Below, in pieces: positions 299 through 62,054 of a DNA stretch of 64,000 nucleotides. The notes beneath the pieces are model-generated. The model did not search any database, was not told the origin of the DNA, and was given only the letters and a program-made list of their open reading frames with translations. The first letter of the stretch is position 1. The number at the start of each line of letters is the position of its first letter. The DNA comes from Micractinium sp. NFX-FRZ (taxonomy: Eukaryota > Chlorophyta > Trebouxiophyceae > Chlorellales > Chlorellaceae). The stretch lies in the NCBI GenBank assembly GCA_029339195.1, contig JAPTJF010000017.1:186001-250000 (forward strand), in the 5' to 3' direction. The translations under genes were made by a program, and so were the position numbers.

Positions 299-3200
299 AT
301 GGCGCTCCGCTTGCTGCCGGTGCTGCTGGCAGCAGCGGCGGTGGCGGTGGGTGGCGGCGCCGCGGTGCGCGCGTCCCCCCTGGGAGAGCACTTTGGCAGC
401 AGCGGCTCCAGACCCCGTGGCATGCTGCAGGCGAGTGCTGCATGATGCTGCCTGATGCAATTTTTCATGCGATTGTGTTGCCGCGGTCGTGATGGAGGGT
501 GGCGGGATGACCGCGGGTCGCTGGGCGGGAAGCTAGTCTTCTGGTCGAAAGTTGGCGTGGGCCTTGGCGCGTGCAGAGTCACTGTCTGCCTGCTGACCCT
601 GCTTCGGTGCTTAGTTGGGGCCGCAGTGATGAGATGGCATACCTTGAAACCTTGCGCGGACAGCGCGCCAGTCGCCAGCAAGCCTCGCCTGCCCCCTGCC
701 CCCCCTGCTTGCCTGCACTCCTTGCAGCCCACAGCAGCATGTGAACCTGGACTATGCACCCCACCAACCGTCGCCATTCTCACTGCATCAGCCATTGCAA
801 TTATACCACTGTGCCACATCGCCCTTCCCGCAGCAGGTGGTGAAGCTTGATGATGGCACTGTGATCCAAGCGGAAGAGTTCCCCGGCCCCCCTAAGGCCT
901 CTGCCCTGCCCCACCTCTTCACCAGCGCTGCCGTGGAGGTGCACTGCCCCGCCCACCGGGTAGGTCTGGGGTGGGGGCGAGGCGATGTGGGGGGTCCAGG
1001 GAAGGGGGCAGGTCGCCATAGGGGCTGGCAAAGCATGTGCAAACAGATGTTGTGAGCCCCAAAGTGCTGCTAACAGGCGCAGGCAGGGGCATTGGCTGCT
1101 GCCGTCTGCACTGACTGCTTTTGGTCAGTTGAGCAGTCAGCAGTGGTTGGGCCCGTGAGGTGTAGCGTGTCGCAAGCATGTTCCGCCGCTGTACCCCCCG
1201 TTTCTGTTGCCTGCCTCGCGAAATTCCCACGGTCAGCCCCTGCTGCGCCATCACGCCACATGCGCCCCTTCCCCCCTCCCCACACCCAACGCTTGCTTCC
1301 TTGCTCCAGGAGTTTGCGGTGTACACCGGGTCCAGCATGTCGCAAGTGCGGGCCGCCTACGAGCGCGGCGACGCCGCCTGGTGCGGCCTGGCGCACTGGC
1401 TGCGCGAGTCGCCCAACTGCTCGGTGCCGATCGCCCCCTACGGCACCACCTTTGTGGCGGTGGCCAAGCCGCGCAGCTGGATGGCAGGTGGGCGGGGTGT
1501 TGGGGGCGGTTGTGGGGGGGCAGCCGGGTGAGGGCAGGGGCGCCCAATCTGCGGCAGTGGCGAAGCGGTGCAGCTGGACGGCAGGTGGGTGTGGGGTTTG
1601 TGAGGGCAGCATAGCTGGCTGGCTGGCTGGCTTGGCAGGTGGGGCGGGCACTAGAATGGCTGAGGGCGAGCGCAGGTGGGAGCGCAGGCGTGCAAGGGAG
1701 GAGCACGTGGCTTGGCGGGGCGGCAGCAGGCTTGGGCGCAGCTGTGAGGGGCAGGGCGCACCTGTTGCAGCATGCAGTCGCAGCAGCCGTGCCCAGCCAG
1801 CCTGGCAACCCCGCACCACTGTCCTGCTGTGGTGCACCTGCTGCATATCATTTGCTGTGTATCGCCTGCTGTACACCCACTACCTGTTGTGCAGGCGGCA
1901 GCGGCGAGGCGCACGCGTGCCAGCTTGAGCGGCGTGAGGCGCTGTCTATGGGCCGCATGCTGGCCGCACTGGTTGGCGGCTTCCTGTTCTGGTATGCCGG
2001 CGCGCTCAGCGAGTCCACGCCCTTCAGGTGAGCTGTCGGTGGGTTGCAGGCAGGTGGCGCCAGGTGGCGCCGGGCGGCACGAGCGGGGGAGCCGGGGGGG
2101 TGCCGGCCTTGTTGCTGTGCTGCCGCTGGTCCATGTGCGCAACAAACAGACACGGGGAGAGTGATGGCAGGCGCCTCTGTGCTGTTCGGCCCTTGCTTCT
2201 CTGGTACAGCTCCCCTGCACCTTGGGTATGAGAGGCAAGCGCTCGACCACCAGGCCTGCTTGGCGCTAACCTCCCATGCCCTGCACTTCAGCTCACACAG
2301 CCAATACTCCTACTGGCGCTCTCCAGCCTGCCTGCTGGCCCCCTTAGAGACTTTGCCGACTTGCCTCTTACCAACCGATCCATACCGCCCCGTCTGATTG
2401 CTGCAGGCTGACGGGTGGCACGCTGGGCTTCATGGCGCTCTCCAGCCTCATCCTGCTCTTCGTCCTGTACAGGTGCTGAGCTGACTGTGCGGTGCGGTGC
2501 CATGCTGCCTGTGCTGTGGTGGCGATGGCCGGTCGACAGTGCGCCGCCTGTCAAGCTGGCACCGTGTGGTGCTGAGCTGGCGGTGCTGAAGCCATGATGG
2601 GCTGGCTCGTTATTCCTGGGCAGCAGCTGTTTGCGCCGCCCATCAGTTTCCTGTCTGCGCCTCCCGCCCTGCCCTGCCCTGCCTGTCTGAACACTCAAGT
2701 AGTGCCGCAAATCTCTTCCCCTTCCCGCCCTCCCTTTCCCCGTGTCGCGCCTGCACTTACCTTCTCCGCCTGCCACCCCCCCTGCAGGAGGGTGCCCCAC
2801 AAGGGCAAGCTGTTTGCGGGTGCCGCCGTGTTTGGCTCCTCCTTCCTGGCCTCCATGCGCTGGCTCTTTGGCGTCTGGCTGCCCTCCACGCACCAGGTAG
2901 GGTGCCGTGGTGCGTGTTTGCTACTTTGTGCGTGCGTGTAGAGTTACTGCCACAGTAGCATTTAGGTGAAAAAGTGTGGGCCAACAGGCAGCGAAGGGGT
3001 GTGCCTCTGCGCTGGGCAAGCGGTTGGTGCGCGGCGGGGAGCGGTTGTCGGGGTGGGGGCGCGGACTGCGCGGTAGATGCACCAGGTGCCCCCCTGTGAA
3101 GCCGCACAGCCATCACGCCTGCAGACCTGCCTGCCCCGCATTCCGCTGCATGCTGCACTGAAGAAGCTGACACCTCCCCAGGCTCTCAGTCGACCACCCA

Positions 3201-5271
3201 CTCTCGCCCCCCTGCAGCGCCACCGACACTGTGACCCCCTTGTGCCTGGGCTGTGCAGATGCTGCGCCACCCGCTCACCCAGGGTTACCTGGCGCTCTCC
3301 GCCCTGGCTGGGCTGGCGCTCACTTATTACTACAACAACACGGGTGCGCACCAGCACAGGGCAGCAGAACACAGCATGCATGGCACGGCAGGGCATGGCG
3401 CAGCGGGGCGCTCACAGATCGCTAGATTCGACTCACAGCCCGGCACTGCACAGCCCACCATGAATCAGCAGGCAATCGCCAGTGCTGGCCGGAAAGCAGC
3501 CGTGGCAGATGCTTTCCTGCCCTGCTGCTCACCCCAGGGTGCCCCCTGAGCTCCCAGCCTACAAGTGCACTCTTGCCTCTTCAAACCCCGCCCCTCAAAA
3601 CCCGCGGCCAACCCAGCACTGCCCCTCCCCTTGCTTTGCTTCAAGCAGAGAACCGCAAGGTCAACACGATGCTGCGAGTGGCGCTGCAGCTGGTGGGCCT
3701 GTCCTCTGTTTACTTCAGGTGAGAGGCGCCGATAGGATGAGGGTTTAGGGTTCAGAACCTAAACCCTAAAACCCTGGGCCTGTCCTCCGTGTACTTCAGG
3801 TGAGAGGCATGGGCAGGGGAGGGGCGCCTGCCGCCACCAGGCGCCTTGCTTGGGGAAGCTCCAGGTGTGGTGCCGCTGGGCAATGCACCTGCCTCTGGTG
3901 CAACCTGGGGGTGCAGCAAACGACTCGCTCGCTCTGCTGCACAGCGCTGCCGCCATGCCGGTTCGTTAAGCGCCCAACACTGCCACGCGAAGTCACCCTG
4001 CCTGCAGTCCAACAGTGCCCCTCACACTCCCCTGCCGCCCAATCACCACGCCCCTCAATCCTCCAGTCCTTCAGCGCACCAACAAGCCCCACCGCTCCCA
4101 CTCCTCCCCTCAACTGAACTTTACTGTACTGAAGTGTACTGTACTGTGCTGTACCGCCTGCCCCCTGCAGCACCTCGATGACCGAGGCCTCGGTTGCCCT
4201 GTGCGCGGGCCTGCTGGGCGCCAAGGCATGGGGCTTCCTGCAGCAGCACCGCTCGATGCGCGATGCCCTGGCCTCGGCCAAGCGCAACATGCAGCACCAG
4301 CTGGGCAGCGAAAGCCAGGAGGAGGAGGGCCCGAGGGTGGTGGCGACCCTGGTGTCCGGGCCGGGCGGGCGCGGCGCAGCGGACCAGCCAGCGCCGGCGG
4401 CCGCCCAGCAGCAGCAGCAGTACCGCACGCCGGTGGTGGGCGGGGGCATGAGGCCCAGCGCGCCGGAGGTCAGCCCTCTGATCCAACGAGGTGAGAGGGT
4501 GAGGGAGCCGGCTTCGCCGTGGCTGCTGACCAGGCCAGGCCAGCAGGGAGGGCAGGCGGCAATGAAGAGGGCGCAGGTGCTTGCACGCCGCACGCAGCAC
4601 GAGAGAAGTGGCTGGTGCCAGCCTGGCCCCCTGGGCGGGCGGCTCTCACGGCTGCGCTCACACACCCCGCCCCCGTCCCTCTTGTGAAGAGCGCCCACAG
4701 CCAGCAGCCTGAGCAAGTGTTGTCAGTCTCCCCGCCCCCCTGCAGGCCTCATCCTGAACGAGGAGACGGGCCACATCATCGGCATTGGCAAGGCGACGTA
4801 CAACCGACTGGGTGAGGGCCGCCCGAGTCTCAACTTGTTCACTGTGGTTTGATGGACTGTGTCAGAGGGGTGTCGTGTCGTCGGGCATGTGCCGGGGCCG
4901 GCCCAAGGTTGAGGGCAGCTGTATGCTGTGGAGGGATGCAGGCGCGCCCCCAGATCTTCTGCCGCTCCAGGGCCGCCCCCTACCCTGCCGTGCCGCCCCC
5001 GCCTCAGTTTGGCCTGCCGTGGAGGCTGGCTGCTACACCGCTGATCAGCAGCTGCTGGGCACCTTCTCCCCACCCGCGTGTCTGTGAATAACTTCCATTC
5101 TTTCTTTCTTCCCAACCTCCCCCCTCCCCGTCTGCCCTTCTAACTGCAGTGGAGTCGGGCTACGTTGTGGACCAGCTGGCGGGCACCATCACCCCGCCGC
5201 CCCCCAGCCCAGAATCGCCCGCCCGCCCCGCCCGGGGCAGCGGGCGCGCCAGGCGGCGCCACACGCCGTGA
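299..5271 (+). CDS. NEMP: NEMP/PNET2-like nuclear envelope integral membrane protein
   Basis: Predicted 500-aa protein of the NEMP (TMEM194, DUF2215) family; the land-plant members are the PNET2 inner-nuclear-membrane proteins that contact chromatin. Exons: 299-430, 738-959, 1310-1487, 1895-2027, 2407-2472, 2788-2896, 3259-3343, 3649-3718, 4171-4490, 4746-4811, 5150-5271; phases agree throughout. Residues 1-25 form an Ala/Leu-rich signal peptide, followed by a lumenal Cys-containing domain (about 45-180). Five hydrophobic segments follow at roughly 195-345, including GFMALSSLILLFVLYR and the motif RVPHKGKLFAG, matching the family layout. The Gln- and Pro-rich tail from about 345 would face the nucleoplasm. 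Intron 1 uses a GC donor (GCGAGT). Introns 3, 5 and 8 hold decayed copies of the preceding exon end. Family placement rests on topology and motif likeness and is fairly secure; the N-terminal exon is the least certain part. Confidence 0.78.
1551..1601 (+). repeat. Intronic ghost of NEMP exon 3 end plus donor
   Basis: This stretch resembles 1458-1499, the last bases of exon 3 with its GTGGG donor. Shared blocks include GCAGCTGGA and GGCAGGTGGG. It lies in the downstream intron and is not needed for the reading frame. Confidence 0.75.
3741..3775. repeat. Head-to-head interstitial telomeric repeat
   Basis: The sequence reads GGGTTTAGGGTT, a 3-base spacer, then AACCTAAACCCTAAAACCC: TTTAGGG-type units in one direction followed by the same units inverted. 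It sits exactly between the true end of NEMP exon 8 (to 3718) and a second copy of that exon end (3774-3809). TTTAGGG is the telomere unit of plants and chlorellacean algae. Confidence 0.85.
3774..3809 (+). repeat. Intronic ghost of NEMP exon 8 end plus donor
   Basis: Near-identical copy, 81 bp downstream, of 3693-3728: TGGGCCTGTCCTC, then GTACTTCAGGTGAGAGGC. It carries a complete second 5' splice site (CAG|GTGAGAG), so a transcript using it would be a plausible alternative splice form. Confidence 0.85.
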
Positions 5272-6383: not shown

Positions 6384-9300
6384 CTACTCGATGTCGATCA
6401 CTTTCGAGAGCTTCTGCAGGCGGTTGAGCAGCAGGTCGCCCTGCTTGATGGCCTGCTGGTACAGCGCGTTCTTGGCGTCGGGCCTGCAAGCCAATGGGTG
6501 GGGCGGGGGCGGGCAGCGGTCGACAATTGGTAGACACTATTAATGCAACCAACTCTCAAATGTCAGTCCCCACCATGCCCGCCCCTTCCGTGACGACAAA
6601 CCATACCAAAACTTGATAAAAGAACACAGTGATACTCCCACCCTTGTCTCGCCTGTTGGTCTCCACCATGCCCGCCACATCCCTCATGCGCAAACAATTC
6701 AAAATCGAATCACTATAATCCTCAACCCATGCATGCCTCACCTGTTGGTCTCCACCATGCCCGCCACCTTGTCAATCTTGGCGGGCAGGCGGCCAGCCAC
6801 GATGAAGTCGGCCTGGCGCAGGGGGAGGTGGGCCAAGGGGAGGAGGAGGCGGCGGTTGAGGCAGCGGGGCGAGGATGAGGAGGCCGGCGCAGGGCAGGAA
6901 GGCGCAACGCTGCGCAGATTGGGCACGGGCGGGTCGAGCATGGGGGCCCCCAGCTGCATGTCACCACACCGTCACACGTCACAAGGGGAGGGGGCCACAG
7001 AGGCACCGATCACATCCCCAAACCACAAGTCGGGCAGGAGTGGAGGTGAGGGGGAGACCAGGAGGCACCCACCAGCTCCGCGTCCAGGAAGTCTGAGCTG
7101 ACCCCAAAGGTGGCCGCCATGCTGGCCAGCGTCACGCTCTTGTACGACTCCAGGAACTGGGAGGGCGGGGGCACAGGGTTGGGCAGGTTGGATCAGGACA
7201 GAACGCTCAGACTTGGGTGCTGTGCAGCTGGTGCGGTGCTGACCTGCCTGGGGCTGGACCCACCCACCCCACCAGGCACGCAGACCGCACCCTCAACACC
7301 CACCCTTGATCAGAATGAAACAGTGCCATCCCATCCCATCCCACCACACCCCATCGCATCCCACCACACCCATCCCATCCCATTACACCTGCGCATATGC
7401 CGCTGCGCGCGCTTCCCGCATGTAGTAGCGGAAGTGTGGGTGCAGGTAGGGGTCGGCGCGGATGGCGTCGCTCAGCCCCGCAAACGCCTGCGGGCGGGCG
7501 GCGGGGGCGGGGGTCCAGTGCTCGGTAGCGTCACCGGGCAGTGTGAAGGCACGGGCGGGAGGGCGGCGCATGCGGGTGCTTGCCTCCCCTGCCAGCACAC
7601 AATCTGTCCGCGCCCTCTAATTCAACCCCTCCCCCCCCCACACACACCCCTGAGATCACTCGGCGTGCCGGCAGCCATGGAGGCAGGGGGCGCCCTGCTT
7701 TCCGCCTGCCCCTGCCTTCCACCTTTGCCTTTGTTGCCCCTGCCGTCACCCCCGGGGAAACCTCATCCCTACCCCGCCCCTCCTCACAAACATAAACATA
7801 AACATAAACACATAAATCACCGCACCTTGAAGAATTCGGCGTACTGGCAGTCGTAGAGTGAGGAGAGGAAGGGGCGCAGGTGGGGCAGCGTGTCGATGAC
7901 GGACAGGACCTCGGGGGAGTCGATGACCTGGCGGGGCGGGGTGGGGAGGTGGGGGGTGGGGTGGGAAGAACATGGAGAGGAGCGGAGGCAGGGGTGAGGG
8001 CATGAGCGGGGGCAGGGCGACACAGCACCAGAACACAGACAGCCAGCGGTTGTGCGGGTTCGGCTGTGAAGCGCAGAGGGCAAATGCACTTTTGGGGCGG
8101 TGGCACGGCGAGGGCGTGGCGAATCCACTTTGCCTCAAGCGTGGGGCAGCCCAGCGCCACCGCATTCAAACCAGGGGCGGTCCCCACAAAGGAGGTTGAA
8201 CCACGGGTTCCTGTGGCAGCCGCAGTATCTGTTCCCCCCACCTTGCTCTTGAGCGTGGGTCGGTCCAGCGCCACCACCGCAAGCAGCACGGTGTAGAAGA
8301 TGCAGCGCTCATACGGCATCAGCTCGCCGCTGGTGAAAGTGGCAATCGCGTCCAGCAGCAGCTCGGCGGCGCGCTTGAACTGACGGGTGGCCATGAGGAA
8401 GACGGACTCGTACACCTGCTTGCAAAGGGGGAGCCCAGGAGAGCTTTCTTTGGTTGTCAAGACGTCTTATGGCAGGGCAGCGGAGCTGAGGTGGCTCCGA
8501 GGAAGACGGCAATATAGCAAACCTTTAGGAGGGACCTCCCGCCACGCCACCCCACCACCCGGCCCCGCACCCACCCCCACAGCATCACCCACCACCCACA
8601 GGCACCCGCCCGCCCACCTTGAGCTTGTTCTTGCGCTCCCAGTCGCCCCCCTTGTCGCACAGCCCCCGCGCCTTCTCCAGCCCCGCCTTCACCGCGCCCC
8701 AGTCGCCGCGGCTGAGCTCCAGCCTGCACAGGCAGGGGCACAGCAGAGAGCCAGGGTGGGGCCATTGGCAGGCACAGGCACAGGGGAAGTTCTGATGCAT
8801 AGTGCGCTATCGGCGTCAGTGCCTTGCGACGCGCTTGCCACATCAGCCCGCGTTCCACCCCTCATGTCCCCAGCCCCTGCCATGCAAGCAGCCGAGAACG
8901 CACCCAACAGTGCAGTCTGAAATGAAATCCGACCCGAAAGCTGGATGCCGCACCCTATGTGGGCCGACGCCCTGCACCCAACCGCCCCACCCCACGCTCC
9001 CAGGCATACGTCAACCCTGGCACAGTCCAGCAGGGCAGCCACCTGGCCGAGGCTGAAGGCAGGCCAAGCTGGCGAGCCTGGCCTGCAGCCTCATCTTGGG
9101 TGCCACCCCTGGGCCTTGGCCTCTGCTTGCCCAGGCACACACACCCAGGCACCGCTCACTCTTCCCAGAAGGCCCCAGGGAGCTGCCCCCACCTGATGAG
9201 GCTGAAGGCCAGGTCCATTTTGGGGCCCACCCCCGCGGTCTTGGCCTCTGCCGCTGCGTACGCGGCCAGCGCGGCAGCGTGGTCGCCCACAGAGCACAGG

Positions 9301-10469: not shown

Positions 10470-13400
10470 ATGGCAGCGCTTCTGCCATGTGCGGCCTGCC
10501 TGCAGTCAGGGCGGGCGGCGCTGCGGCAGCGGCACGTCTGTAGCACACGGCATAGATCCAGCTTGCTGTTTGGCGAGGATGGACCCAGCAGCAGCGGGCG
10601 AGGAAGGGTGGCAGAGGGTCGTCCCGCCTCTCGGCGGTCCTTCTTCCGCCTTGCAGCCTACCTGCAGTCTCATGGGGAGTCTCAGGCAAGTCTGGGGAGA
10701 GCCGCGGCCCTGCCGACTGGCTGGCTGGGCGTGTGCCAGGCGGCGGCACGCACGAGGCGGCGCGCCGCCACTCCCACCGCCGCACCCGGTGGTAGGTTGG
10801 TGCTGGCCTGAGCCTGAGGGTGTGCTGCTGTTGTGCAGGTCCCTGAAGACTTCCCGACCACAGGCAGCAGCAGCCCCACGCTCCTACGACCCAGCAGCGG
10901 CGCCGGCGCGGGCGGCAGCAGCGGCGCCGCGCCTGCTGCAGTGGGCACCAATTCGCTGGCTCTAGTGCAGGAGCGAGGCGGCGCCAGCCTGCTGCAGCTA
11001 GTGGCAGCCTGGGACCAGCTGGCAGCACGCCTGCCACCACAAACAGGCGCCGGGCACGGGGCGGACTTGATTCTAGAGGCGCTCAAAGTGGCCGTGGCCT
11101 TCTCGCCCGCCCCACCAGCAGCCGCAGCGGCGGACAGCGCGGGTGCAACAGGACCAGGCACGGCAGCGCCCTCGCAACTGGCGCGCCCCGTGGCCCGCGC
11201 CCTGTCGCTGGCCTCCCGCCTGGCCGACCTGTCGGCCGCTGGGCTGCCCTTTGATGCCGAGAGCATCGCTGCCGGCATCCTGGCTGAGGCGCTGCTGGCC
11301 GGGGCGCAGCCGTCGGGCGCGTGGCACCCCGGCGGCGCAGCAGGCAGCGCCGGCGGCGGCCTCACGCTGCAGATCATTGAGGAGCGGGTGGGCCCCATTG
11401 TGGCTCAGCTGGTTCATGACATCAAGCGGGCCCGCCAGCTGCCCGCCCGCGTGGAACTGTTGGACGACACCGCCGCCAGGTCAGCACTCCCACCCTGTCT
11501 ATGTATCAGGGGAATGGCATCATGCACAGCTCCTCAGCCCCTTCCTCCCTCCTGCCGCTGCACCCACCTGCTGCCTCCTCGTCGGCGTTGAGTCAGCGCC
11601 GCCACCCTGCCCTCCTACGTCACGTGCTGTCCCGCCTCCCCCCGCCTGCAGCGCCCTGCGTGAGCTCTGCCTCTCCTTCTACGACGTGCGGGCCACAGCC
11701 GTGGAGATTGTGGCCCGCCTGGACCTGCTGTGCAGGTGGGTGGGGCGGTGGGCCGGCGGGTGCAGCCGCACCCCGACATGAGCTGTGGTCGCTGCTGCTG
11801 GGGGCATTGCTGGGCGAGGCACTGGCCGCTGCTGCAACCTGCAGCGTGCTGGTGTGCTGGCGTACTGTTGTGCAGGAGCAAATCATGCACTGCTGGCAGT
11901 CGGTTCATTGCTGCCGTGCTGGCATGCTGGTGTGCTGGCAACGCCCAGCGCTCTGCCAGGCACCGTTTGATACAACTGACTTGGTTTAAGCGCCCCGCCT
12001 TGCCTGCCCACCTCTTGTGCCTGCAGCCCCGGCCAGCCCAGCCACGAGCAGCAGGTGTCGGCGCTTGAGGCGCTCCAGATGTATGCGCCCATGGGGCACG
12101 CCCTGGGGCTGGGCCCCGTGGCGCAGCAGCTCGAAGACCGCTGCTTCCAAGTGAGTGGGTGGGCGGTGGTGCCGTGGTTGGTTGGTTGTGCGTGGGGCCG
12201 TGTGCTACCTCACACCTCAGTGCTCTTGCTTGGGTGCTGGGTTGGCTGTGCCCGGTGGCACAACAGGTGGAGGGCCGCTGTTCCCAGGTGGGTGGGGTGG
12301 TGCTGCCGTGGTGCTGGTTGCTTGCATGTAGATGGTCGTCACGCGGGGCAGCCTGCCCTCACGGAATGGCTCATGGTTCAGGCACTGGTCCTGGGGTGCT
12401 GGCCGGACCTTCTTCCCCCTGCTGAGTCCCCACCCTCGACCCCATGCATCACATCGCCACGCCCTGTCTTCTCAGGTTCTGTTCCCCGAGAGTTACGTGC
12501 GCACCGCCGCCTGGCTGCGGGAGGAGAGCGCCGCAAACGCCGACGTGCTGGAGCGCTGCCAGGCCGCGCTGCGCGCCGCTGTGCTGCGCCAGCCGCGCTT
12601 TGCTGAGCTGGCAGACGGGCTGACGGTGCACGGCCGCACCAAGACGCTGTTCTCCACGCTCAAGAAGCTGCTGCGGCTGGGCAACACGGCGGCGGGGGGC
12701 AGGGCCAGGGCTCAGCTGTACGACTTGATGGGGCTGCGCGCCATTGTGCAGCCGCGTGCCGACCTGCAGCCGGTGAGAGCCAGGGAGGGGCGCTGCTGAA
12801 TGCCGGTGTTATCAGACAACCAATCAGTGCATTGCTGCCGGGTGTGGGCTCCTGTCGAGACAGCGCCCTGCATTGTTGCACACCTGCCGGTCAGCATGGG
12901 GGCTGTTGCAGAGTGCTGTGGGTCGAAATGCACTGCTGGTGCCGGTGCCGAGCCCGCCTTGCAGTCACCCTGCCCTGGCTGCCTCCCTGCTTGCCTGGCC
13001 ATAAGCTACCTGCTTGCACCTCCTCCCTTTGGTCATCGCGGTGCCCAACCCCCCGCACTTACCAAGCCCCCCCCGCACTTACCAAGCTCCCCAGCGCTCA
13101 CCTAGCTCCCCACACCTAAATGTCCCCCGCCCCCCCGCAGGAGGAGGCCGAGGCGCTGGCCGCCCAGGCCTGCTACCTGGTGCGCGACGCCGCCTGCTCC
13201 CTCTGGGAGTGCCTGCCTGAGCGGGCGAAAGACTACGTCGCCGCCCCCAAGTCAAACGGCTACCAGAGCCTGCACAGCACCGTGCGCGTGCGCTCGGAGA
13301 CCGTCAGCCTGAGCCTGAGCCAGGACGGCGGCAGCGCCGCGGGCGCAGCGGGGGCGCCAAGTGGCGCCGGCGAGGCGGAGCAGGAGCAGGAGGTCCGCAG

Positions 13401-14443: not shown

Positions 14444-14481
<38 letters not shown>

Positions 14482-27905: not shown

Positions 27906-27940
<35 letters not shown>

Positions 27941-46400: not shown

Positions 46401-49400
46401 GGCTGTGAGATAAAGGGAGGCGGGGAGGCACACGTCCCAACTGCCCTCCCCCGCCCATTCCCCTCTTCTCCCCTTGCCTCGCCTCGCCCCACGCCAGCTC
46501 AGTTTCCCTGCCTTCTCCTCCTGCCCTCCCCTTGCCTGCCTGCCCACCCGCCATCAACTGCCAGCAGAGATACGTTGCACTCCCCCCTTGGTCTGCCCAT
46601 CCCCCCCCCACCCCACCCTCAACACTTGTTACTCCCACCCACCCACCTGCCACCGCCTCCAAGTGAATCACCCGCACCTCCTTGGTCTGCCCAATGCGGT
46701 GGGAGCTGCAGGCGGGGTGGGGCCACAGAAAGGGGACGGGGAGGGCCGGTGGAGACGCTAGCCAGCAGCCAAAACAGGCGGGAGGCGCCACCGTCTGCGA
46801 TTGGGCGAGACAGCGGTGCTGGCCGAGCAGGCCCGCACAAAATCCCGAGCACTCCACTGCCTGCCCCCCTGCCCCTTTGGGCGGCGTCGTACTCACGTAA
46901 TCAAACAACAGCAAAGCTCATAACTTCAAACAGCAGCAGTGGAGCTTACCGAGCAATGGCCTGCTCCTCGTTCTTTGGGTTGGGGTCGGGGTCATAAATG
47001 ACCACCGTGTCCGAGGACTGCAGATTCAGGCCGCGCCCGGCGGCCCTGCAGGGATGTAGAATATAGTTGGGTTGGTAAGACGGTGCAAAAGCGCCACGTG
47101 AGCACCCCCCAGGTCCAACGGATGGACGGCAGGAAGATGCGTGCCTTGGAGCCCCTCTCACCTGATTGAGAGCCGGAAGTCAATGGGCAACTACAGTAAT
47201 AAACGCTCACCTCATCCAGGGCAGGCAGAACAATGCCTCAGAGTCATCGGCACCCCTCGGAGAACACAAGATCAAAAGTCACACACGACTCGCCTGATGG
47301 ACAGGAGGAAGATGAAGGCCTCGGAGTCCTTGGCGTTGAACTTCTGGATGGCGCTCTCCCTGCGGAGCAGCAAGGCAAGAGACCGTGCAAGCGAGGTTTG
47401 AGGCCGTGGACGGCTGGCACATAGGGGGCAGGGTGTGGACGCACGTGTGAACAAGCAGCAATTCCTGCACTTGGCGGATGCTTCCCACACCCCCATCCCG
47501 ATGAACGGCAAGCCAAGGGGGTGCAGCAAGGCTCTCAAGCAGGCAGGGAGGGAGGGAAGGTGGGGCAAAGCACAGTTTGGGGATCACCATCGCCACTAAC
47601 ATCGCCAAGCATGGGAGCTGCCCTGGCGCACCTGTCCTCCAGGCTGGTGCTGCCGTCGATGCGCAGGTACTGCATGGTACCGCCGCCCAGGTTCTGCACG
47701 GGGAGGAGGGGGCGAGGGGGGCGTCGGCGGCTTGAGGGACTGCAGCCACCGCCACGCTATCACACCGCGACCATGCTCCTTTCCGGTGCATCTTGCACCG
47801 CACGTTGATCCATGCCGACAAAAAGACAAAGAGCTCTGACAGATGCTGCAGCGCAGGTGCACCCCACCCCACCTCTGCCCTGTTGTTGGTGAGGTTAGTG
47901 GATGATAAGACAGTACATGGGCCTGCCGCACGCACCTCTGGCAGCTCCCTCCAGCGCAGGTACACCTCCAGCAGGTCCAGCAGCTTGGTCATGGTGCTGA
48001 ACAGCAGCACCCTGCAGGTGTGCATGGAAGGGAGCGAGGCGGTGCATGGGGGGAAGGGGGCACTGGGAGGCTCTGATCGGTGTGCCGTGGTGCCCAGTGG
48101 CAGCACCCACTTTTGATCGGCCGTCCCGGCTCTCGCCTCGCCCCCACAAGGAACATTATTTGCGCACTCCTGATTTGCCCAGCTCACCTGTGCCCGCTCA
48201 GCTTCCTCCTCACCAGCAGCCTGTCTGTAGCACCAGCACATGCCGCAATGCCCCCCTTCTCGCTCGCGACCCAACCTGACTATTTTTGACCGCACCTGTG
48301 CCCGCTCAGCTTCATCTTCACCAGCAGCCTGTCCAGCACCAGCATCTTGCCGCACTGCCGCACAATCGACTCGCCCACCGCCCACGTCTCGGGAGGGTAG
48401 CTCAGCATGGGGTGGTTGCACACCTGGGCGGGGGAGACGGCGGAGGGCAGGGCAGGGGGAGGGGAAGTGTGGATCACGATGCAGGCGCCAGGCCGGGGTG
48501 AGGTCAGTTGGCTCACAGCTAGGGCCTGCTGGCCGAACAAGCCGGGCGCAAACCACCGTGCCGCAGCAAACACAGACAGGCGCATGCCACCCCACACTCC
48601 CCCTCGGCTTCATCTCGAGCAGCCCATCACACCGACCAAAACATTTGCACACATACACTGTGCGGATTTTGGAGGCCAGGCCACGCCCTCCCGCATCCCG
48701 TTGCAGGGACCAACGCAGAAACCAAAGCAGAACAGGCGCCTCACGCCCACCTTGCGTAGCTCCATGCACTTGTTGTTGAGGGAGGCGTACTCCCGCCGGA
48801 ACTTGCCCAGGAAGGGGGCGGTGGGGTCCAGGCGCAGCGTGCCTGCAGGCAGCGGCGCACGGAGAGGCGGGGGCGCGCAGCAGCAGCAAGCGAATGGTTT
48901 GAGGGTGGGCACGGCAGCGCTGCTGCGAGCTGCGAATGGGCCTGTGCAGGTGCCACCATCCTCGCAAGGCCTTCCAGTTCTTCTCTCGCGAGTTCCCTGC
49001 CTGCACTGCCCGTGCCACAACACGCCCATCACCCACGCACACCCCCCATTCACAGGGTGCTCTGTTGGGCTGTCCGGATTCGTGCCCCCACCTTTCCTTT
49101 GTACACCCCTCAAACGCCCCCGCCCCCAAACCCTAATCCCTTGCCGTTTGGACATGATGGTACACAGCACACACACGAAGCCTTGATCCACTGGTCAAAT
49201 GTCACGCACACTACTTTGGTTTGCCCACCGCTTGCACACTCTTTTGTTACGAAACCCACCCGAGGCCTTGATCCACTGGTAGATGGTGGACTGGTAGGGC
49301 GACATGGCCACCTTGACCACCACGGGCACCTTGGGGGGCAGCTTGCTCTCAACATCCTCCACCTGGGGGGGCCGGGGCATGGGGAGGAGGGAGGGCACAG

Positions 49401-52400
49401 CACTAGATGGGCACAGCACTAGACGGGCACAGCACTAGATGGGCACAGCACTAGATGGGCACAGCGTTAGATGGGCACAGCGTTAGAAGGGCACAGCGTT
49501 AGATGGGCACAGCGTTAGATGGGCACAGCGTTAGATGGGCACAGCATTGGTGGCTACAAAGCATGGTGCAGACCCCCACCAACGCACGATCCAGCATCGT
49601 GCGCCCCCTCCCACCTGTCGCCGCAGCATGAAGGGCTCCAGGATTTGGTGCAGGCGGTGGATGACCACCACCCGCTTCTCCATCTCCAGCCAGTCCGCCT
49701 CGGACGCGCCCGCACCCTGCAGGTGTGTCGTAACAGATGAGCCAGGTTGAGATGAGAGGGTGGGGCGCCCAACGCGTGCACACTCCGCACACATTGTCTC
49801 GCCCCTCCAGCCCACCACACACCGCAACAATCTTCTCTTCCGGCCCTACAGCCCGCCCACCCCGACACAAGCAAGCACGCTAGGAGCCAACCGCCCGCCC
49901 CCACCTGTGTGGAGGCGATGGCCTCCCCAAACCACTCTGCAAACATTTTTTTGTCGTCGAAGATCTCGGGCAGCAGCAGGTTGAGCAGGGACCACAGCTC
50001 CTGCGGGGGGAGAGAATGTGTGTGTGTGTGTGGACAACGGAGCACCGTTTACCTAGTAATACTGTCGTGCTACCAGGGCCGGACCCTTGTAGCCGATTAG
50101 CAAGTTTGCGCGCCTCGCCTTGCCCCTCCAGCCCCACGCTCCCACCCACGTACTACACCCAGTGCTGAAGCTGCCCAATCTACTAGGTAACTGCCACACT
50201 CAACAGCTGATGCACTAACTCCCACCTGCAGGTCATTCTGCAGCGGCGTGCCCGACAGCAGCAGGCGGCGTGAGGCTGCAGAGAGGGGAGCAAGGGAACA
50301 TAGAGGCAGAGTGTAGTGTAAATGCCCCACACACCGGTCACTGTACGACGCCCACAGGTCACGGATGAGAAACACAGGACTTGGATGGACGCCACCGCCT
50401 GGCTGAATATGGAACACAGCCACAGCACCAGCCTGCAACAGTCAACTTGTGTCTGGCCGCTGGTGGCCATGACCACTGAATGCACACTGAGGGCCGAGGC
50501 CAGCGCACCAAAATCTACGCATATATACATCTACACAACCAAGAGCCAGCGCCCCAACCGTGAACCCACACACATTCTTGTTTACGTGTGACAAAGCAAC
50601 AGAAAAAACGAATGCAAGAAGCGCCCACCCGTGAACTTGTCCAGGTCGCGCGCCAGCTTGGACTGCCGGTCCTTCATGCGCTGCGCCTCGTCGATGATGA
50701 TGTACTGCCAGTCAATCTGCGGTACAGGGTGCGGGTGCAATGTACTGCCAGTCAATGGTGCGAGGCAAGCCAAAGGCTGCGGCGACGATGGTGATGTACT
50801 GCCAGCCAATCCACGGAACAGGGTGGGCACGGGACAAGAGGGCGTCACAATACCTTGCTCAGCCGCGAGCGGTCCCGCATGATGAACTCGTACGTGGTGA
50901 CCAGCACGTTGAACTGCAGGCTCTGCACCTCCTGGGCATACTTGCGCGCACGCTCGTCCTGCGAGGGAGGGGGGCGGCGTTAGAGGGGTCAACGCGTTAG
51001 AGGGGTCAACGCGTTAGAGGGGTCAAGGCGTTAGAGGGGTCAAGGCGTTAGAGGGGTCAAGGGGAGGCAGGCAGGCGGGGGTGAGGGAGGGTGGGAGTGG
51101 ACGGTGGAGGGCAGGGGGGTGCACAGGGATGGTGGGCAGGTGGCAGGCCCGCCAGGGGGCCGCAGGGAGGCGGCGTAGGCAGCAAAGTGCAGGCAGTGCA
51201 GGCAGCGGCCGCGGCTTGTGCAGACCACAGCAGCACAGCACGAGACTGAGTGTGCAGCGGTGCGGTACACCAGGGTGCGCCCACCTTGTTGCCCACGAAG
51301 TACACGCAGCGCGCGGTGTCGCCTCCTTGCTACCTCCCTAGCCCACACAACCCAGCACCTGCCACTCTTAAGCCCCTGTCCTCACCCACCTTGTTGCCCA
51401 CGTAGTACACGCAGCGCACGGTGGGCAGCCACTGGGTCAGCTCGCTCTTCCAGTTCACAATGACTGAGGGGGGGGGGAGGGAGAAGGGGGGACAATGGGA
51501 TGTCAGGGGACGATCAAGTGTAGGCAGGGCGGACTGGCAAGAGGCTGACAGGGGCCAGTTGGAGTGTGGGAAACGGGCACGTGCGACGCACACAACCACC
51601 TGCCCGCCCTGCTGCCTCAATCCCTCCCTGCACTCCCAACCACCCAGCCACGCCCCAAACCTGCCCCAGCTGCCTGTCTGCACACCCACCCGCGTTGGGC
51701 ACGATGATGAGGTGGGGCCCAAAGTTCTGCTTCTTCTCCATCAGGTAGGCAATCAGGGCCATGACCTGATTGGGGGGAAGAAGGCAGATGGAAAAAACAT
51801 TCCAGGTAGTGAAAGAAGGAAGAATCTAGCACTAAGTAGGTGCAGCTTTGGCGCACGTGGGCCGTTTCTTGCGACAGCTGTTCCAAGGTGCAGGGTGCCG
51901 CCCCTGCTTCTGCCTGCCCCGCGCCCAACCGCTCCCACCACCTTGCGCCGTCCTGGACAGCCCTCCATCACAGCGCCAATCACCGCCCAAGAAGGAACAG
52001 CCAACACGTAGGCAGCACACACGGCGGGTCCTAGCCTGCACCGTCTTGCCCAGGCCTGTCTCGCGCGCCAGCAGCCCCACCCAAAGCACAGCAAAATCAA
52101 AGCAGCATTGCTATGGAGGAACATACGCCGGGCAGTGCCCACCTGCACCGTCTTGCCCAGCCCCATCTCGTCTGCCAGCAGCCCGTTCAAGTGGTTGTTG
52201 TACAGGGACACCATCCACTGCGCATGAAGGGGGCGAGGATTGGTGTAAGAGTGCATTCGCCTGAGCGGAGCAGCACAACACGCTGAGCGGAGCAGCACAA
52301 CACGGTGCTGCGCTGCCACCTGCAGGCTCACAATCAGGTGCCTGCGCAGCAAGGCGCTGTTGGGCCTGACGCCCGCCGCGCTCACAACTGGAGACGGCAG

Positions 52401-55400
52401 ACAAAACCTCGCCCACACCCCACGGAGCACTGCTGGGCCTGATGCCGCCGCACAGCCAGGCATGAAAGGCAGCGGCACACGAGTAGGTCGGCCGGCAGGC
52501 TCATGACCACGTGAGGGAGCCTCACCTGCAGGCCCACGATTTGGTACTCGCGCAGCGTGGCGTTGTTGGGCGGGCGCAGCAGCTTGGGCTGGTCCACCAC
52601 CTCCTCCGTGTTGCTGCGGCGTGGGGAAGAAAGCAAGCGGTTGGATAGGTGCCAGCGGTGGATGGTGGAAGGCAAGGCGGCAGCTTGCGCTGATCAACCA
52701 CCTCCTGAGCGTTGCTGCATGAGGCTGGGTGCAATCTATGCATGTGTGAGGAGCGCTGTCGGTGATACCGTGCCCACAGGGGTCCAGGTCGGCCTGCTGG
52801 GTGCTGTGCGCCAAGCACAGCGGAGCACAGCGCACACCTGTGTGACCGAGCGCGGTGCCGGCTCTGCACGTGCGGTACAGCATGTCACGGCACGGCACGG
52901 CACAGCACAGCACAGCACAGCGCAGCACAGCACAGCAGCCATACCTGTGTGCCAGCGCATAGTACCGGCTCTGCGCGTCCATGGCGCCCGCCGCCGCGCG
53001 CCGCACATCGCTGGATGCCGCCGCCTCCTCTGCCGCCGCGTGGGCGGCCGCCTGCACGTCCTCCTCGCTCATGCCCTGCACACAGCAATACACACATGTG
53101 CCAGGCATCTTGAATACAGCTCTCATATGGACGACAGTGTAGCACCAGCGGGGCAAAGGCGCCGGGGGGTCACGTGTGCTGAAAGGGGGTGGCAGGCCTG
53201 CTCGCCAGCGCACTCTTGCCCCAGCGGCCGCCCGCCCACGCCTTGCCTACCGTCCTCATCTCTGGCCCGTGCCGCCGCCCCAGCAGCCTACATCGCATGC
53301 AGACTCAACCGCCTGCCCACCTTTGCGCGGGCCTCCTCGATGGCGCGCGCCGCCGCCTTGCTGATCTCCGCCGTCATCTTGACGTTGGCAATCTTGGAGG
53401 CCAGCTTGTGCAGGTACTCCTCCGTGTCTGCAAGAGTTGCGATAAGGCAAAAACACACCGTCTGCATGAGTTGCGATAAGGCAAAAACACACCGTCTGCA
53501 TGAGTTGCGATAATACAAAAACACAATGTCTGCATGAGTTGCGATAACACTAAAACACGGCGATCAACTCAGCGAGTGTCAGTGAGCAGCGGAGGAGCTT
53601 GGAAACCGGACAGCATGTGCGAACAACACTTGGTATAAGCACAACAGGCCTGACTGCACCTGCCAGGAGGTTGGAGGCCAGCATGTGTGCGGGCAACCCT
53701 GTGCAGCCCGGCAGCCAAACAAGCTAACAGTCCCGCAGCAGCAGGCCCCGCTCACCTGCCAGGAACCTGGAGGCCGGTCATGTGCGGGCAACACACTTGA
53801 ACAGCACAACAGGCAGGCAGCCCAGCAGCCCAGCAGCCCCAGCAGCCCCAGCAGGCCACCCCGCTCACCGGCCAGGAACCTGGAGATCTGTTCGTAGCGC
53901 TCGCCGGTGCCGGGCGCGCTGACGCCCGCCTGCGCCTGCAACATCTCCTGGTACGCCTCAAAGTCGTGGGCCTGCAGGGGGGTGGCGGTGTGGCGTGGCA
54001 CGACACAAACAGGGTAAGGGTCCTTGTCAGATCCAGCCAATCGACAGACTGATTGTGTGTGCCTTGCGCATCTCCTGGTGTACGCCTTCCAGAGCCGTGG
54101 GCCTGGGCCTGACTACGAGCCACAAATCAGTGCGTCCCATGTGGCTGCCTGTGCGCCCAGTCACTATGCGCATGCACACACTTGTGCGGCTGTGCACGCC
54201 CACAAAACACCGCCAGCAAGCAGTGTGTCAGGACACCCTAGCTAGCTTATAACCTAGCTAGCTCTAACCAGCCACGCACCTTGAGCGCCTCCAGGCGCAT
54301 CGCCCGGTCGTCATCCTTCAGCTTGTTGCGCTCGCGAGCCAGCCGCTCGTGCACACGCAGCACACCTGAGGGGACGCGGGGGTGCGGGGGGAGTGAGGGG
54401 GGTGGGGTGGGCAGGGCAGCGGGGAACGCGTAGGGTTATGGGGTGCGGGTGCGGGGTAGCAGGGAAGGGGTGGGCAGGGAAGGGGGCACCAGGGCACACA
54501 GAGGCAGCAAATGGTGGCGTGCTGTTGGCGGCAGGGCAGCTGGGCCGGTCTGCGAGGGGGGGACGAGGCAGATCAGTCCACAGAGAGAGCACGGCTCGAC
54601 CTTTCCCACACTTCCAACTCAACCCTTGCCGAAATTGACTCAAGCCTGCCCTGCCCTCCGCAGCTGCACTGAGCAACCCGAGTTTTTTTCTTTTTCCGAT
54701 TCTCCCCAGCATCATCTCCCCCACCCGCCCACTAACAAACGCACCTCGGTTGCGCAGCTGGCGCGCGTCGCGCGCCGCGTTGCACCGCTCCGCAATGAAC
54801 TCCTTCTTGTGCGTCTGGGCGTCCTTGGCGCGCGCCGCGCCCACCTCCCCCTTGTGCGCAATCTCCTGCAGGGCGGGCAGCCCAGGAAGTGTGTTTGGGT
54901 ATCCGACGCGTTCTTTCCCATGCGTAGTTTACGGTATATCGTAAAACCCAATCCGTGCTGTACGGTTCTCGCAGTGCGCACAGCAGCAGCATGCGGCAGC
55001 GGTGCCGTGCTGCCCTGTCCCCTTTCCAGCACCGTACGCTCCCTGTCCACCTCACCCCACCGCCTTGCGTAGCATCCCGTTGCGCTGGGTGCTGCCCCCC
55101 AGCACAGCACAGCGCAGCACAGCACAGCGCAGCACGCCTCACCTTGCGCGCCATCTCGATGCGCTGGGTGCGGTGCGTGCGCAGCATGTTCTTGTACTTG
55201 CGCTCCGGCATCTGCGGTGCTTTCCAGATGGACCAGGCAGTACATGTGGAGTGGCCCTTGCGGTACAGGTGGCGACGCGCTGCATGCCCTCCCATGCACA
55301 TGCCCCCTCGCCTGCTCGCCCTCCTCCTGCTGCGCCTCCTCGCCACCCGCCAACCCCAGTGGTGTGCCCAATGCATTTCCGTACGTTGACACTGTATGCT

Positions 55401-56643
55401 TCACCCTCATGTTTCCTTTGTAACCTCACCTGCATCACCTCCTCCTGCTCCGCCTCCACCGACCGCCGCACCTCGACCTGCTTGGCTGCCAGCTTCAGGC
55501 GCAGCTCCTCCAGGGCCGCCCGCCCAATGGGCATCTGCATTCAAGGGTAGAGAATGTGCCTTGATCAACCAGCACCTGCTGGCGCAGCTACTGCCGGTGT
55601 TTGAGTGCCCAGCAAAGACTGTGGGAATTGCAAACAAGAAAAGCTAGTCAAGAGTGGCTGCCAGCTTCAGGCGCAGCTCCTCAACAGCCGGTAGCCCGCC
55701 CAACGAGCATCTATTTGGTGTGCACTTGCGGTTGAGAAACAGCAACAGCAGAAAAGCAGTTGAGCAGGACATGGACAGGCATCATCCTTGGCCACTGGGG
55801 AAGCAGAGCACGAAATGCGGCAGTCGTGCCTGCACAGCATGGCGTGCCAGCAGGCACCGCAGCAATGTGCCTGGGGCTCGACACAAAGGGCGCCCCCAGC
55901 ACTCTGCACACCCACAGCGCAGCACAGCACACCACCGCCCCCCACTGCAAAGCCTTGCCTCCCACCTGCTGGCTGCGGTAGCGGAACCCGGGCGCCGGCC
56001 CCTCTTCTTCCGCTGCCCCCACAACCGCGCTACTGCTGGCCCCAGACGCCGCTGTGCCTGCTGCGCTCGTGCCTGCGCCAGCCCCAGGGCCCATGCCGGC
56101 GGCCGCCTTGGCCGCCTGCTTGGTGGCTGAAATCTCCTGGCGCCGCTCATTGGCCTTGCGGGTCAGCAGCCGGCGGTACTCGTGCAGTACCAGTTGGGAC
56201 ACGTCGTACCGCAGCTGCTGCGGGCGCAGGAAGCCGCTCTGCAAGAGAGGGTGGGCAAGACGGAGGGCAAGCCCAGGTAGTAAAGTGATGTGGGGGGCGG
56301 CAGGGGAGCGGGCTGGGGTTGGCAGCGATTTCGCGGCAGTCGCAGCAGCCGCTGACACGTAGCCTGCGTCAGCGGCGGCGAACGCAGTGCACCGGCAGCA
56401 CTGAGGCTGCCCTGTCCTGCCTACCGACTGAGCCTATGGCAGCAGCACTGCAGCAGCAGCACCACCACCACCAGGCTCAACAGCAGCAGCAGCAGCACTA
56501 GCAAGCCTTGATGAGCCCACGCCTGCTACCCACCTGCGCCGCCGGCTGCGTGAACTGGCCGCCCTTGGGTGCTGAGGTCAGCGTGAACATGGGCCCCTGC
56601 CCACTGTTGCGTGCCGACTGCGGCCGAAAAGAGGGGGCGCTGG

Positions 56644-56678
<35 letters not shown>

Positions 56679-61000: not shown

Positions 61001-62054
61001 AGCCGCTGGGGCTGTTCCGCAAGCGCGCCCTGGCCATCCAGCAGCTGTCGCAGGACTTCCTGTACAAGCAGGTAAGGCGTCATGAGGTATACTGCTTTGT
61101 AGTGCCTTTGCCAAATTGGGTGAGGTTCATCCACTGCCTGTCGCACGGCTTCCTGTACTGCAGCTGCACAGGCCTGGGTACACTCTGCTGTATCACCCTC
61201 TATTTATGGTTGCTTGACTGGAGGTGTTCACCCACCACCCGCTCCGCCCCCGTACGCATCTCCGTGCCCGCTTTGCGTGCTCGCTCACTCCGCCTGCCTC
61301 CCCGCGTGTCCCACATGCCTGCGCCTGCTGTGCCTGCACCCCTCCCACCCACCCACCCCTTGCACACACACGCAGTGGCGCCAGCCCACCGAGCTCTACG
61401 GCATTGGCAAGTACGCCGCCGACGCCTACCTCATGTTCTGCCGCGGCAGGTGGGTGGGCAGGCGGCGGCATGTCAGGGGTGGAAGCAAGGGTGGCTGGGT
61501 GCACCTTTCCAGTGGGGCCACGGCAGGTGCGCGGCAACAGAAGACAAGTGTTGTTCTCTTCATTAAGTTTTGGGGCAGACGCGGTGGGGGCCTAGCTACC
61601 GCATGGTGTTTACCCGGGGCACGTGTGGTGTGGGCACAGCACTGACATCGTCAGCAGGTCGCATCTTGTGGGGGGTACTTGTGGTTGGCGTGTGGGTCGA
61701 GTAGCGGGAGGCCGGATGGTGCGTGATGTGTGGCATGCTGACTCCCGCTCAGTGTGCCCTGCCAAACCGCACGTCCCCCGCTCTGCCCTGCACAGGTGGC
61801 GGGAGTTGTAGCCCGGGGGCACGGGCCTTGAGCTCTACCCCACTGCGCCTGCTGCGTGTGTTCCTCTCTTCGCCCTGCACCCCCAGCCTATGCGACTCCC
61901 CTGCTCAACCTTGGCCACCTTGTGTTGCACCCTGCACCACAGCTGGCAGGAAGTGCAGCCCGAGGACAAGGACCTGCGGCGCTACCGTGACTGGCTGGAG
62001 CAGACGGGGGGCCTGGGCACGGGACTCACGCGGCACCGCACCACTGACGCCTGA
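58079..62054 (+). CDS. MBD4L: MBD4-like DNA glycosylase (base excision repair)
   Basis: Helix-hairpin-helix superfamily glycosylase that removes T or U (or 5-hydroxymethyl-U) opposite G in the nucleus. Exons 58079-59356, 59783-60053, 60408-60481, 60668-60748, 60991-61071, 61376-61449, 61943-62054; phases fit, 656 aa. The catalytic domain is C-terminal (about 515-656): SPYGLL, ELYDDPWKLLVACMLLNKTS, LIQPLGLFRKRALAIQQLSQ, ELYGIGKYAADAYLMFCRGR and WQEVQPEDKDLRRYRDWLEQ, matching plant MBD4L motif by motif. D611 in GIGKYAAD is the expected catalytic aspartate. There is no methyl-CpG-binding domain, as in land plants. The first 500 residues are disordered Gln/Ala/Pro-rich sequence except for a Cys cluster near residue 61 (C-x2-C-x6-C-x2-C in GCAKCRYSRGGCARCR). 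Introns before exons 3 and 7 and after exon 5 hold exon-edge copies. Confidence 0.93.
60306..60340 (+). repeat. Intronic ghost of MBD4-like exon 3 start
   Basis: TTGGTACTGCA then AGCTGGGCGATGATCCC repeats TTGGTACTGCA, then AGCTGTACGACGACCCC at 60396-60430, including the acceptor. Confidence 0.75.
61136..61167 (+). repeat. Intronic ghost of MBD4-like exon 5 end
   Basis: CTGTCGCACGGCTTCCTGTA followed by CTGCAG repeats CTGTCGCAGGACTTCCTGTA at 61047-61066 (LSQDFLYKQ). Confidence 0.85.
61787..61818 (+). repeat. Intronic ghost of MBD4-like exon 7 start
   Basis: CTGCACAGGTGGCGGGAGTT then GTAGCCCGGGG repeats the acceptor and start of exon 7 at 61932-61963. Reading it would give WREL and then TAG, so it is not a usable exon. 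Confidence 0.8.

Follow-up and report, generated by a model that had tools for sequence, protein, structure and literature searches.

Copies of exon edges in introns of Micractinium sp. NFX-FRZ and their possible origin by short tandem duplications across splice sites

Introduction

Why should introns of unrelated genes contain decayed copies of the very exon ends that border them? The question is raised by a window of 64,000 bp from the green alga Micractinium sp. NFX-FRZ (bases 186001-250000 of contig 17; the assembly comprises 66 Mb in 838 contigs), for which an earlier note, made from the sequence alone, had described such copies in about thirty introns of seven genes. The present analysis covered 334 kb of DNA containing no N, i.e., the window and 270 kb of the same assembly (50-kb blocks of contigs 1, 2, 3, 4 and 6, and 10 kb on each flank of the window). 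Within this DNA, 573 introns were modelled by a semi-Markov gene finder trained on this genome, and the splice signals it learned were clean (donor similar to CAG/GTGAG, acceptor TGCAG/G, the slash marking the splice site). A copy in an intron is called a ghost below and the exon edge that it resembles its parent. The best reading of the data, to which we assign a probability of roughly 55%, is a wave of tandem duplications of approximately 100 bp that straddled splice sites and left the surplus unit in the intron.

Introns carry copies of their own exon edges

The claim of the earlier note that introns carry copies of neighbouring exon edges was confirmed, since 101 of the 573 introns (approximately 18%) contained a direct copy of an adjacent exon edge, far above chance. 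Matches between exon edge and intron were counted at a local score of at least 30, lower scores being dropped. At the donor side, 57 introns harbored a copy of the end of their own upstream exon, compared to chance levels of 1.4 (introns of other genes with similar length), 2.4 (other introns of the same gene) and 3 (the own reverse complement). At the acceptor side, the start of the own downstream exon was recovered in 47 introns, with corresponding chance levels of 1.9, 2.2 and 2. Chance as the source of the copies is therefore ruled out by the reverse-complement control and by shuffled exon-intron pairs, the latter being the comparison that had been proposed with the original observation.

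Two scans that made no use of gene models revealed the same picture. Self-BLAST of the first five blocks, the window included (264 kb), gave 47 direct matches spaced 60-119 bp, some of which stem from one array or minisatellite, while inverted matches closer than 300 bp were absent from these 264 kb. A masked autocorrelation for ungapped near-repeats detected 54 events at shifts of 40-129 bp with a peak at 90-110 bp, compared to only seven events over the whole range of 260-1200 bp; a minor second group consisted of nine events at 180-219 bp. Thus, both the phenomenon and its characteristic length are visible before any exon is called.

Distribution of the copies in the window

Of 103 introns modelled in the window, 29 contained an edge copy. 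Two further edges belong to the gene at 299-5271, which was missed by the finder at its usual setting and modelled separately. The total of 31 introns in seven genes agrees with the number given previously, one of the genes being included on the basis of a CAG run alone. Identities of the window matches range from 73% upward, and four of the 30 matches based on gene-finder models stop more than 3 nt from the splice site. In BRM (43444-57548), copies were found at 18 edges in 17 of its 34 introns, compared to 84 of 539 introns elsewhere. All 14 BRM exons that had been named before were recovered, exon 8 on both sides, although exons 5, 9 and 25 gave weak matches with scores of 33-35. The copy rate varies by gene (chi-square 72.9 with 38 degrees of freedom, genes with at least five introns), and another large gene showed no copy in any of its 30 introns.

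The homology check of the gene models comprised two genes, RPN7 and BRM. With its C-terminus trimmed (388 residues aligned), the RPN7 protein shares 88% identity with Micractinium proteins and 85% and 82% with those of Chlorella variabilis and C. sorokiniana, respectively; the nearest match reaches 97%. These values are in keeping with the chlorellacean genome spoken of in the earlier note. The RPN7 model contains the RPN7 and PCI domains. The BRM model contains SNF2-rel_dom and Helicase_C and aligns to yeast STH1 in a single stretch. Names of other genes in the window (kinesin-like and others) were taken from the translations by eye and not from homology searches. Terminal exons are the weak spot of the finder; the RPN7 model, for example, overruns the true end of the gene. 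The edge copies in the window are the following, fractions giving the matching positions:

1550..1598, plus strand: ghost of exon 3 donor edge (exon 1310-1487) of the first gene (299-5271); parent 1453-1501, spacing 97 bp, 49 bp at 81.6%
3775..3808, plus strand: ghost of exon 8 donor edge (exon 3649-3718) of the first gene; parent 3694-3727, spacing 81 bp, 34 bp at 94%
6645..6678, minus strand: ghost of RPN7 exon 10 donor edge; parent 6734-6767, spacing 89 bp, 32/34
8125..8161, minus strand: ghost of RPN7 exon 6 donor edge; parent 8238-8275, spacing 114 bp, 31/37
9092..9126, minus strand: copy near RPN7 exon 4 donor edge, short of the splice site; parent 9216-9251, spacing 125 bp, 30/35
12244..12296, plus strand: ghost of exon 5 donor edge of gene 10368-18528; parent 12107-12159, spacing 137 bp, 41/53
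15516..15539, plus strand: ghost of exon 9 donor edge of gene 10368-18528; parent 15399-15422, spacing 117 bp, 22/24
28708..28725, plus strand: doubtful CAG-run match to the exon 4 start of gene 26670-30027; parent 28786-28803, 17/18, low complexity
32231..32271, plus strand: ghost of exon 4 donor edge of the kinesin-like gene; parent 32124-32164, spacing 107 bp, 31/41
34195..34237, plus strand: ghost of exon 9 donor edge of the kinesin-like gene; parent 34105-34147, spacing 90 bp, 36/43
35928..35945, plus strand: ghost of exon 13 acceptor edge of the kinesin-like gene; parent 36032-36049, spacing 104 bp, 17/18
40861..40883, plus strand: ghost of exon 25 acceptor edge of the kinesin-like gene; parent 40966-40988, spacing 105 bp, 21/23
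43965..44018, minus strand: ghost of BRM exon 34 donor edge; parent 44087-44140, spacing 122 bp, 43/54
44721..44753, minus strand: copy near BRM exon 33 acceptor edge, short of the splice site; parent 44629-44661, spacing 92 bp, 26/33
45729..45760, minus strand: ghost of BRM exon 29 donor edge; parent 45802-45831, spacing 71 bp, 29/30
47121..47154, minus strand: ghost of BRM exon 25 donor edge, weak; parent 47296-47329, spacing 175 bp, 27/34
48185..48252, minus strand: ghost of BRM exon 22 donor edge, top score in the window; parent 48293-48359, spacing 107 bp, 61/66
49169..49195, minus strand: ghost of BRM exon 20 donor edge; parent 49254-49280, spacing 85 bp, 24/27
50776..50822, minus strand: ghost of BRM exon 16 acceptor edge; parent 50680-50728, spacing 94 bp, 40/47
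51280..51318, minus strand: ghost of BRM exon 14 donor edge, without intron-half similarity; parent 51385-51423, spacing 105 bp, 37/39
52035..52077, minus strand: ghost of BRM exon 12 donor edge; parent 52142-52184, spacing 107 bp, 37/43
52317..52365, minus strand: ghost of BRM exon 11 donor edge; parent 52523-52571, spacing 206 bp, 39/49
52677..52718, minus strand: ghost of BRM exon 11 acceptor edge; parent 52576-52617, spacing 101 bp, 35/42
52828..52871, minus strand: ghost of BRM exon 10 donor edge; parent 52936-52978, spacing 107 bp, 37/41
53228..53279, minus strand: ghost of BRM exon 9 donor edge, weak; parent 53309-53357, spacing 78 bp, 39/49
53746..53772, minus strand: ghost of BRM exon 8 donor edge; parent 53859-53885, spacing 113 bp, 26/27
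54069..54105, minus strand: ghost of BRM exon 8 acceptor edge; parent 53942-53974, spacing 131 bp, 31/33
55063..55092, minus strand: ghost of BRM exon 5 donor edge, weak; parent 55142-55171, spacing 79 bp, 25/30
55306..55339, minus strand: ghost of BRM exon 4 donor edge; parent 55424-55457, spacing 118 bp, 30/33
55655..55712, minus strand: ghost of BRM exon 4 acceptor edge; parent 55483-55536, spacing 176 bp, 50/54
61128..61158, plus strand: copy near exon 5 donor edge of gene 58079-62054, short of the splice site; parent 61035-61065, spacing 93 bp, 27/30
61791..61839, plus strand: ghost of exon 7 acceptor edge of gene 58079-62054, weak; parent 61938-61986, spacing 147 bp, 36/49

Some repeats of other kinds were encountered beside these copies. 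The spacer of the exon 8 pair of the first gene (3728-3774) contains a palindrome of telomere-like repeats, and the region occurs at a single place in the genome. A 34-bp minisatellite at 53426-53558 comprises approximately four units with TGCAG, the last of which is the acceptor of BRM exon 9, so that a row of tandem acceptors results. Two more minisatellites are located in BRM introns at 49393-49548 (16 bp, 9.8 units) and 50976-51062 (17 bp, 5.1 units).

Anatomy of parent and copy

A match was regarded as spanning if it reached to within 3 nt of the splice site and if the intron part amounted to at least 20 nt. This applied to 86 of 104 matches; two further ones reach the splice site at a spacing of 35-38 bp. 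At spacings of 55-160 bp and with an exon part of at most 70 nt (n=70), the copied exon part measures 32±11 nt, the implied intron part of the unit 75±21 nt and the spacing 107±20 bp. The exon part does not exceed 100 nt on the donor side and 60 nt on the acceptor side, the 90th percentiles being 45 and 44 nt. Donor-side ghosts are situated in mid-intron, e.g., at positions 43-111 of 284. A step of about 100 bp also recurs in small arrays, some of which have approximately three units. The ghost of the BRM exon 8 donor, for instance, is the nearest unit of an array of about three units of approximately 100 bp, in which the intron halves match as well. A clear sequence motif at the breakpoints was not recognized when the printed base frequencies were inspected by eye.

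In pairs without a visible intron half, the exon and intron parts are negatively correlated (-0.42, n=51, 55-160 bp; -0.14±0.13 expected from the filter alone), and the spacing of the same 51 pairs is independent of the exon part (correlation 0.05). Together, these values argue for a fixed unit or step.

Two structures deviate from the common class. The C1 block contains at about 34513 a perfect 35-bp tandem duplication across a predicted donor, which is far shorter than the 100-bp class. In the C4 block (6177-6468), a 78-bp copy of an exon start, 96% identical, lies 214 bp away; this is possibly a partial tandem exon duplication, the finder apparently calling the copy an exon too.

The layout of repeat, spacer and repeat is also what non-autonomous, introner-like insertions with long target-site duplications would leave behind, and the spacers are indeed less GC-rich than matched intron segments (59.3 versus 65.1% on the donor side, 60.5 versus 63.2% on the acceptor side). 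Spacers of mobile elements should, however, be shared between loci. A second place within the 334 kb was found for 19 of 79 spacers and for 20 of 79 controls, and two parent-spacer-ghost regions occur at a single place in the whole genome, as judged by a search that skips common words. Terminal inverted repeats were not detected (mean end-match 2.92 of 12 positions, controls 3.16), and full-unit tandem cases exist. A mobile element is hardly credible as the source and was rejected on account of the unshared spacers and the absence of terminal inverted repeats, in agreement with the earlier view that the copies are not transposon-like.

Decay and fate of the ghosts

In 58 ungapped pairs, 12.2, 13.2 and 16.2% of the first, second and third codon positions differ, and in the 25 best copies the values are 5.3, 5.9 and 6.5%. 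The spacing shows no bias to multiples of three (25, 26 and 28 of 79 pairs in the three classes modulo three). These nearly even mismatches, with slightly more at the third position, and the missing frame bias indicate that the ghosts behave as non-coding DNA. Coding alternative exons or tandem exon duplications were rejected for the same lack of coding constraint. A copy of a whole exon with both splice sites was not found among these introns, the exon part of 32±11 nt being far below the median internal exon of 106 nt; the C4 locus is a possible exception.

Ghost donors have retained GT in 22 of 42 cases, while approximately 32 would be expected at the median identity of 0.88; ten have changed to GC. 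Ghost acceptors have kept AG in 30 of 37 cases. Ghost sites score below the real ones (medians 2.5 versus 7.0 and 4.7 versus 6.9). That ghost donors are lost beyond expectation is consistent with competing donors being selected against, probably in the course of splicing. Ghosts might, on the other hand, be functional decoys, alternative splice sites or exons maintained by selection, for which the mostly intact AG of the acceptors and a pyrimidine tract seen by eye at some of them could be taken as indications. Such a role appears quite improbable, as codon positions differ little even in the best copies, the spacing follows no frame, donors vanish faster than expected and the ghost sites are weaker than their parents.

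Consistent with the proposal that the process lengthens introns and seeds spare splice sites, introns with a ghost have a median length of 330 nt compared to 250 nt for those without, and ghost GT and AG dinucleotides are found in the copies. The difference in length may, however, partly arise because a match is more easily accommodated in a long intron. The notion of a continuous process, suggested before by the range of identities, gained no support. Full-length units that are at least 90% identical and do not belong to short-period repeats were represented by one case in 334 kb (ungapped scan), so young units are almost absent. The copies may therefore stem mostly from a past wave and not from an ongoing stream. 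A collapse of young repeats in the assembly is possible but less likely, because the contigs are free of N and several hundred kb long.

Origin of the copies

How could such copies have arisen? According to the reading that we favor, many short tandem duplications would have occurred independently of each other, each with a unit of approximately 100 bp, in which about 30 nt would be exonic and 70 nt intronic. The extra unit would come to lie within the intron, because only the use of the outer border keeps the protein intact. Selection would preserve the parent in the exon, whereas the ghost edge and the two intron halves would be free to drift. What remains visible would then be the exon edge and its splice signal, repeated at a distance of about 100 bp. 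Repeated rounds of duplication would yield the small arrays, and ghost donors would be lost faster than the rest of the copy, probably through competition in splicing. By analogy with plants and animals, the repair of staggered breaks or nicks may have been the trigger. We infer that all copies began as full tandem units.

Such units are directly seen in part of the material. The intron half was examined in the 71 of 86 spanning matches with a spacing of 55-160 bp and was visible (p<0.01) in 20 of them (on the donor side in 13 of 39 pairs, on the acceptor side in 7 of 32); in the others, decay may have concealed it in part. Simulations allowed a quantitative comparison. After tuning (exon part at most 50 nt, divergence 0.12-0.25, one indel of about 15 nt per five substitutions), tandem duplication came near the observed spacing, identity, copy length and gap rate. 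This is an adequate but imperfect fit, obtained by tuning the decay and the exon part. With an unrestricted exon part, the intron half was visible in 46-89% of the pairs at a divergence up to 0.22 (small indels at a rate of 0.1) and the short copies were not reproduced.

A number of results weigh against tandem duplication as the origin of all copies. The tuned simulation still predicts a visible intron half in 37% of pairs, where 26% were observed, and near-perfect copies (at least 94% identical over at least 33 nt) in 3.9%, where 10.6% (9/85) were found. With small indels and an exon part of at most 50 nt, the intron half should be visible in 64-97% of pairs at a divergence up to 0.22, compared to 28% observed; only at a divergence of 0.23-0.27 does this value drop to 33%. 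Near-perfect copies such as those of BRM exon 14 (37/39) and of an edge in the C2 block (40/41) have no significant intron-half match. In nine pairs with a matched intron half and at most four intron gaps, the exon half differs at 43 of 287 positions (15.0%) and the intron half at 83 of 467 (17.8%), i.e., at a ratio of 1:1.2, whereas simple drift of one copy versus two would lead to about 1:2. Exon parts of more than 60 nt are rare, which means that the breakpoints are not uniform. The anticorrelation of exon and intron parts shrinks to -0.19 (n=64, p=0.07) without the spacing filter and is not significant in the 19 full-unit pairs. To these points, the scarcity of young full-length units described above has to be added.

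Duplications confined to introns bear on the same issue. The scan gave 47, of which 19 were short-period repeats; 11 of the remaining 28 belonged to edge arrays, so that 17 were left (10 of them at 65-125 bp). Under uniform placement and the decay models, 29-161 would be expected, observed spacings extending to 160 bp and simulated ones to 190 bp. This deficit also counts against the favored reading. A preference for splice edges is at most hinted at. When coding sequence (CDS) ends were compared with their flanking DNA, matches were found at 2 of 47 ends and 1 of 44 starts, with 91 of 872 at splice edges of introns of at least 200 nt; these figures do not clearly speak for or against such a preference. 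One of the end matches is a CAG run, and the start match resembles an internal exon edge misread as a start.

It is conceivable, though clearly less probable than tandem duplication, that copying is anchored at the splice edge itself. A break end or nascent strand in the intron would anneal via a splice-like motif (GTGAG or TGCAG) to the real site about 100 bp off, and approximately 30 nt of exon would be copied before rejoining, so that in most cases a full tandem unit never exists. This idea is favored by the pairs with an unmatched intron half (p≥0.05), near-perfect edges included, because their similarity breaks off a median of 6 nt into the intron. Near-identical edges without an intron half, the short exon patch of the same size on both sides and the deficit of intron-only duplications point in the same direction. 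Exon and intron parts are, however, anticorrelated at 55-160 bp as expected for a fixed unit, and arrays of full units exist. Inverted copies are a frequent product of template switching, yet none was found at this range in the 264 kb. Moreover, CDS ends of better-supported last exons, which lack splice motifs, gave 2 of 26, a value not clearly below the 10% at splice edges. The stronger statement that a copying process tied to splice junctions, advancing by about 100 bp, writes exon-edge patches into very many introns without a tandem intron half is more doubtful still. If it were true, splice motifs, or splicing or transcription at exon edges, would steer the choice of template in repair or replication.

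The short exon part could also reflect selection. With a long exon part, the ghost site would sit in full exon context; with a short intron part, the real acceptor would lose its branch point and pyrimidine tract.

Gene conversion or slippage, repeated and short, would be another way to keep the ghost edge exon-like while the intron halves drift freely. In some arrays the exon halves are far more alike than the intron halves, and in one triple array the farther copy appears by eye to be closer to the exon than the nearer one. However, repeats of 30-60 bp are, by general knowledge, short for conversion, the adjoining intron half should be refreshed too, and chance variation accounts for part of the pattern. 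This explanation is thus unlikely. Returning to tandem duplication across splice sites, the earlier proposal of a local process tolerated only in the intron stands insofar as the copies are local and direct and decay as non-coding DNA. It may not be the whole story, because the intron half is visible in less than a third of the pairs and because fewer intron-only duplications were seen than uniform placement would give under the decay models tried. The step of approximately 105 bp, the short incursion into the exon and the excess loss of ghost donors go beyond what had been described before.

Comparison with known systems

Tandem duplication involving splice sites is listed as one of seven proposed routes of intron gain in the part of the review PMC3443670 consulted here. 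In the model of Rogers and in Hellsten 2011, as summarized in the same part, an intron is gained by tandem duplication of an exon segment containing AGGT. A local tandem duplication with splice-site sequence is common to both systems. In that model, the stretch between two AGGT becomes an intron, whereas the copies described here are located in mid-intron and mirror the adjacent exon. AGGT-mediated intron gain was rejected for them, since the ghost of the upstream exon end sits in mid-intron and does not abut the next exon. A further example is the potato RdRp gene, for which excerpts of Ma, Lan and Niu 2016 (PMC4974935) describe intron gain by tandem genomic duplication across a splice site. 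As in Micractinium, the duplicated segment runs from the 3' end of an intron into the beginning of its exon and includes the splice signals; an 83-bp tandem duplication within the first intron is also mentioned there. The potato gene is, as far as those excerpts go, a single case that produced a new intron and a new piece of exon, whereas in the alga introns only grow, with the ghost inside, and about 18% of them are affected. In Drosophila, novel intron positions have been attributed to sliding or tandem duplication (PMC2891723). The duplications around proto-splice sites resemble those reported here, but the passages in question deal with few cases within coding sequence that gave rise to new introns.

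Short tandem duplications from break repair are known from rice (Vaughn and Bennetzen 2014, as cited in PMC7407515), where insertions comprise tandem, partly tandem and non-tandem copies from at most 200 bp of the break, according to the relevant part of that paper. In mammalian cells, short tandem duplications have been linked to CST/Pol alpha-primase in the portion of PMC8355091 that concerns them. Duplications from break or nick repair are direct, short and local like the ones found here, but the excerpts of PMC7407515 and PMC8355091 contain neither a focus on splice edges nor a mode at approximately 100 bp. A genome-wide effect on introns, as in Micractinium, is also ascribed to introners (PMC9860276). 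Genome-wide copies of exon edges in introns are unreported in titles and abstracts of the open-licence literature among the matches listed. Algae belong to the hosts of introners. Introners possess an element sequence, while none is common to the loci studied here.

The lengthening of introns and the origin of cryptic splice sites are usually inferred from single cases. Here, a parent under selection adjoins each ghost, so that duplications, their sizes and the fate of surplus sites become countable in one genome, and the silencing of competing splice sites becomes a directly testable question. What differs from the known systems is the scale, the step and the outcome, namely longer introns with decaying spare edges instead of new introns.

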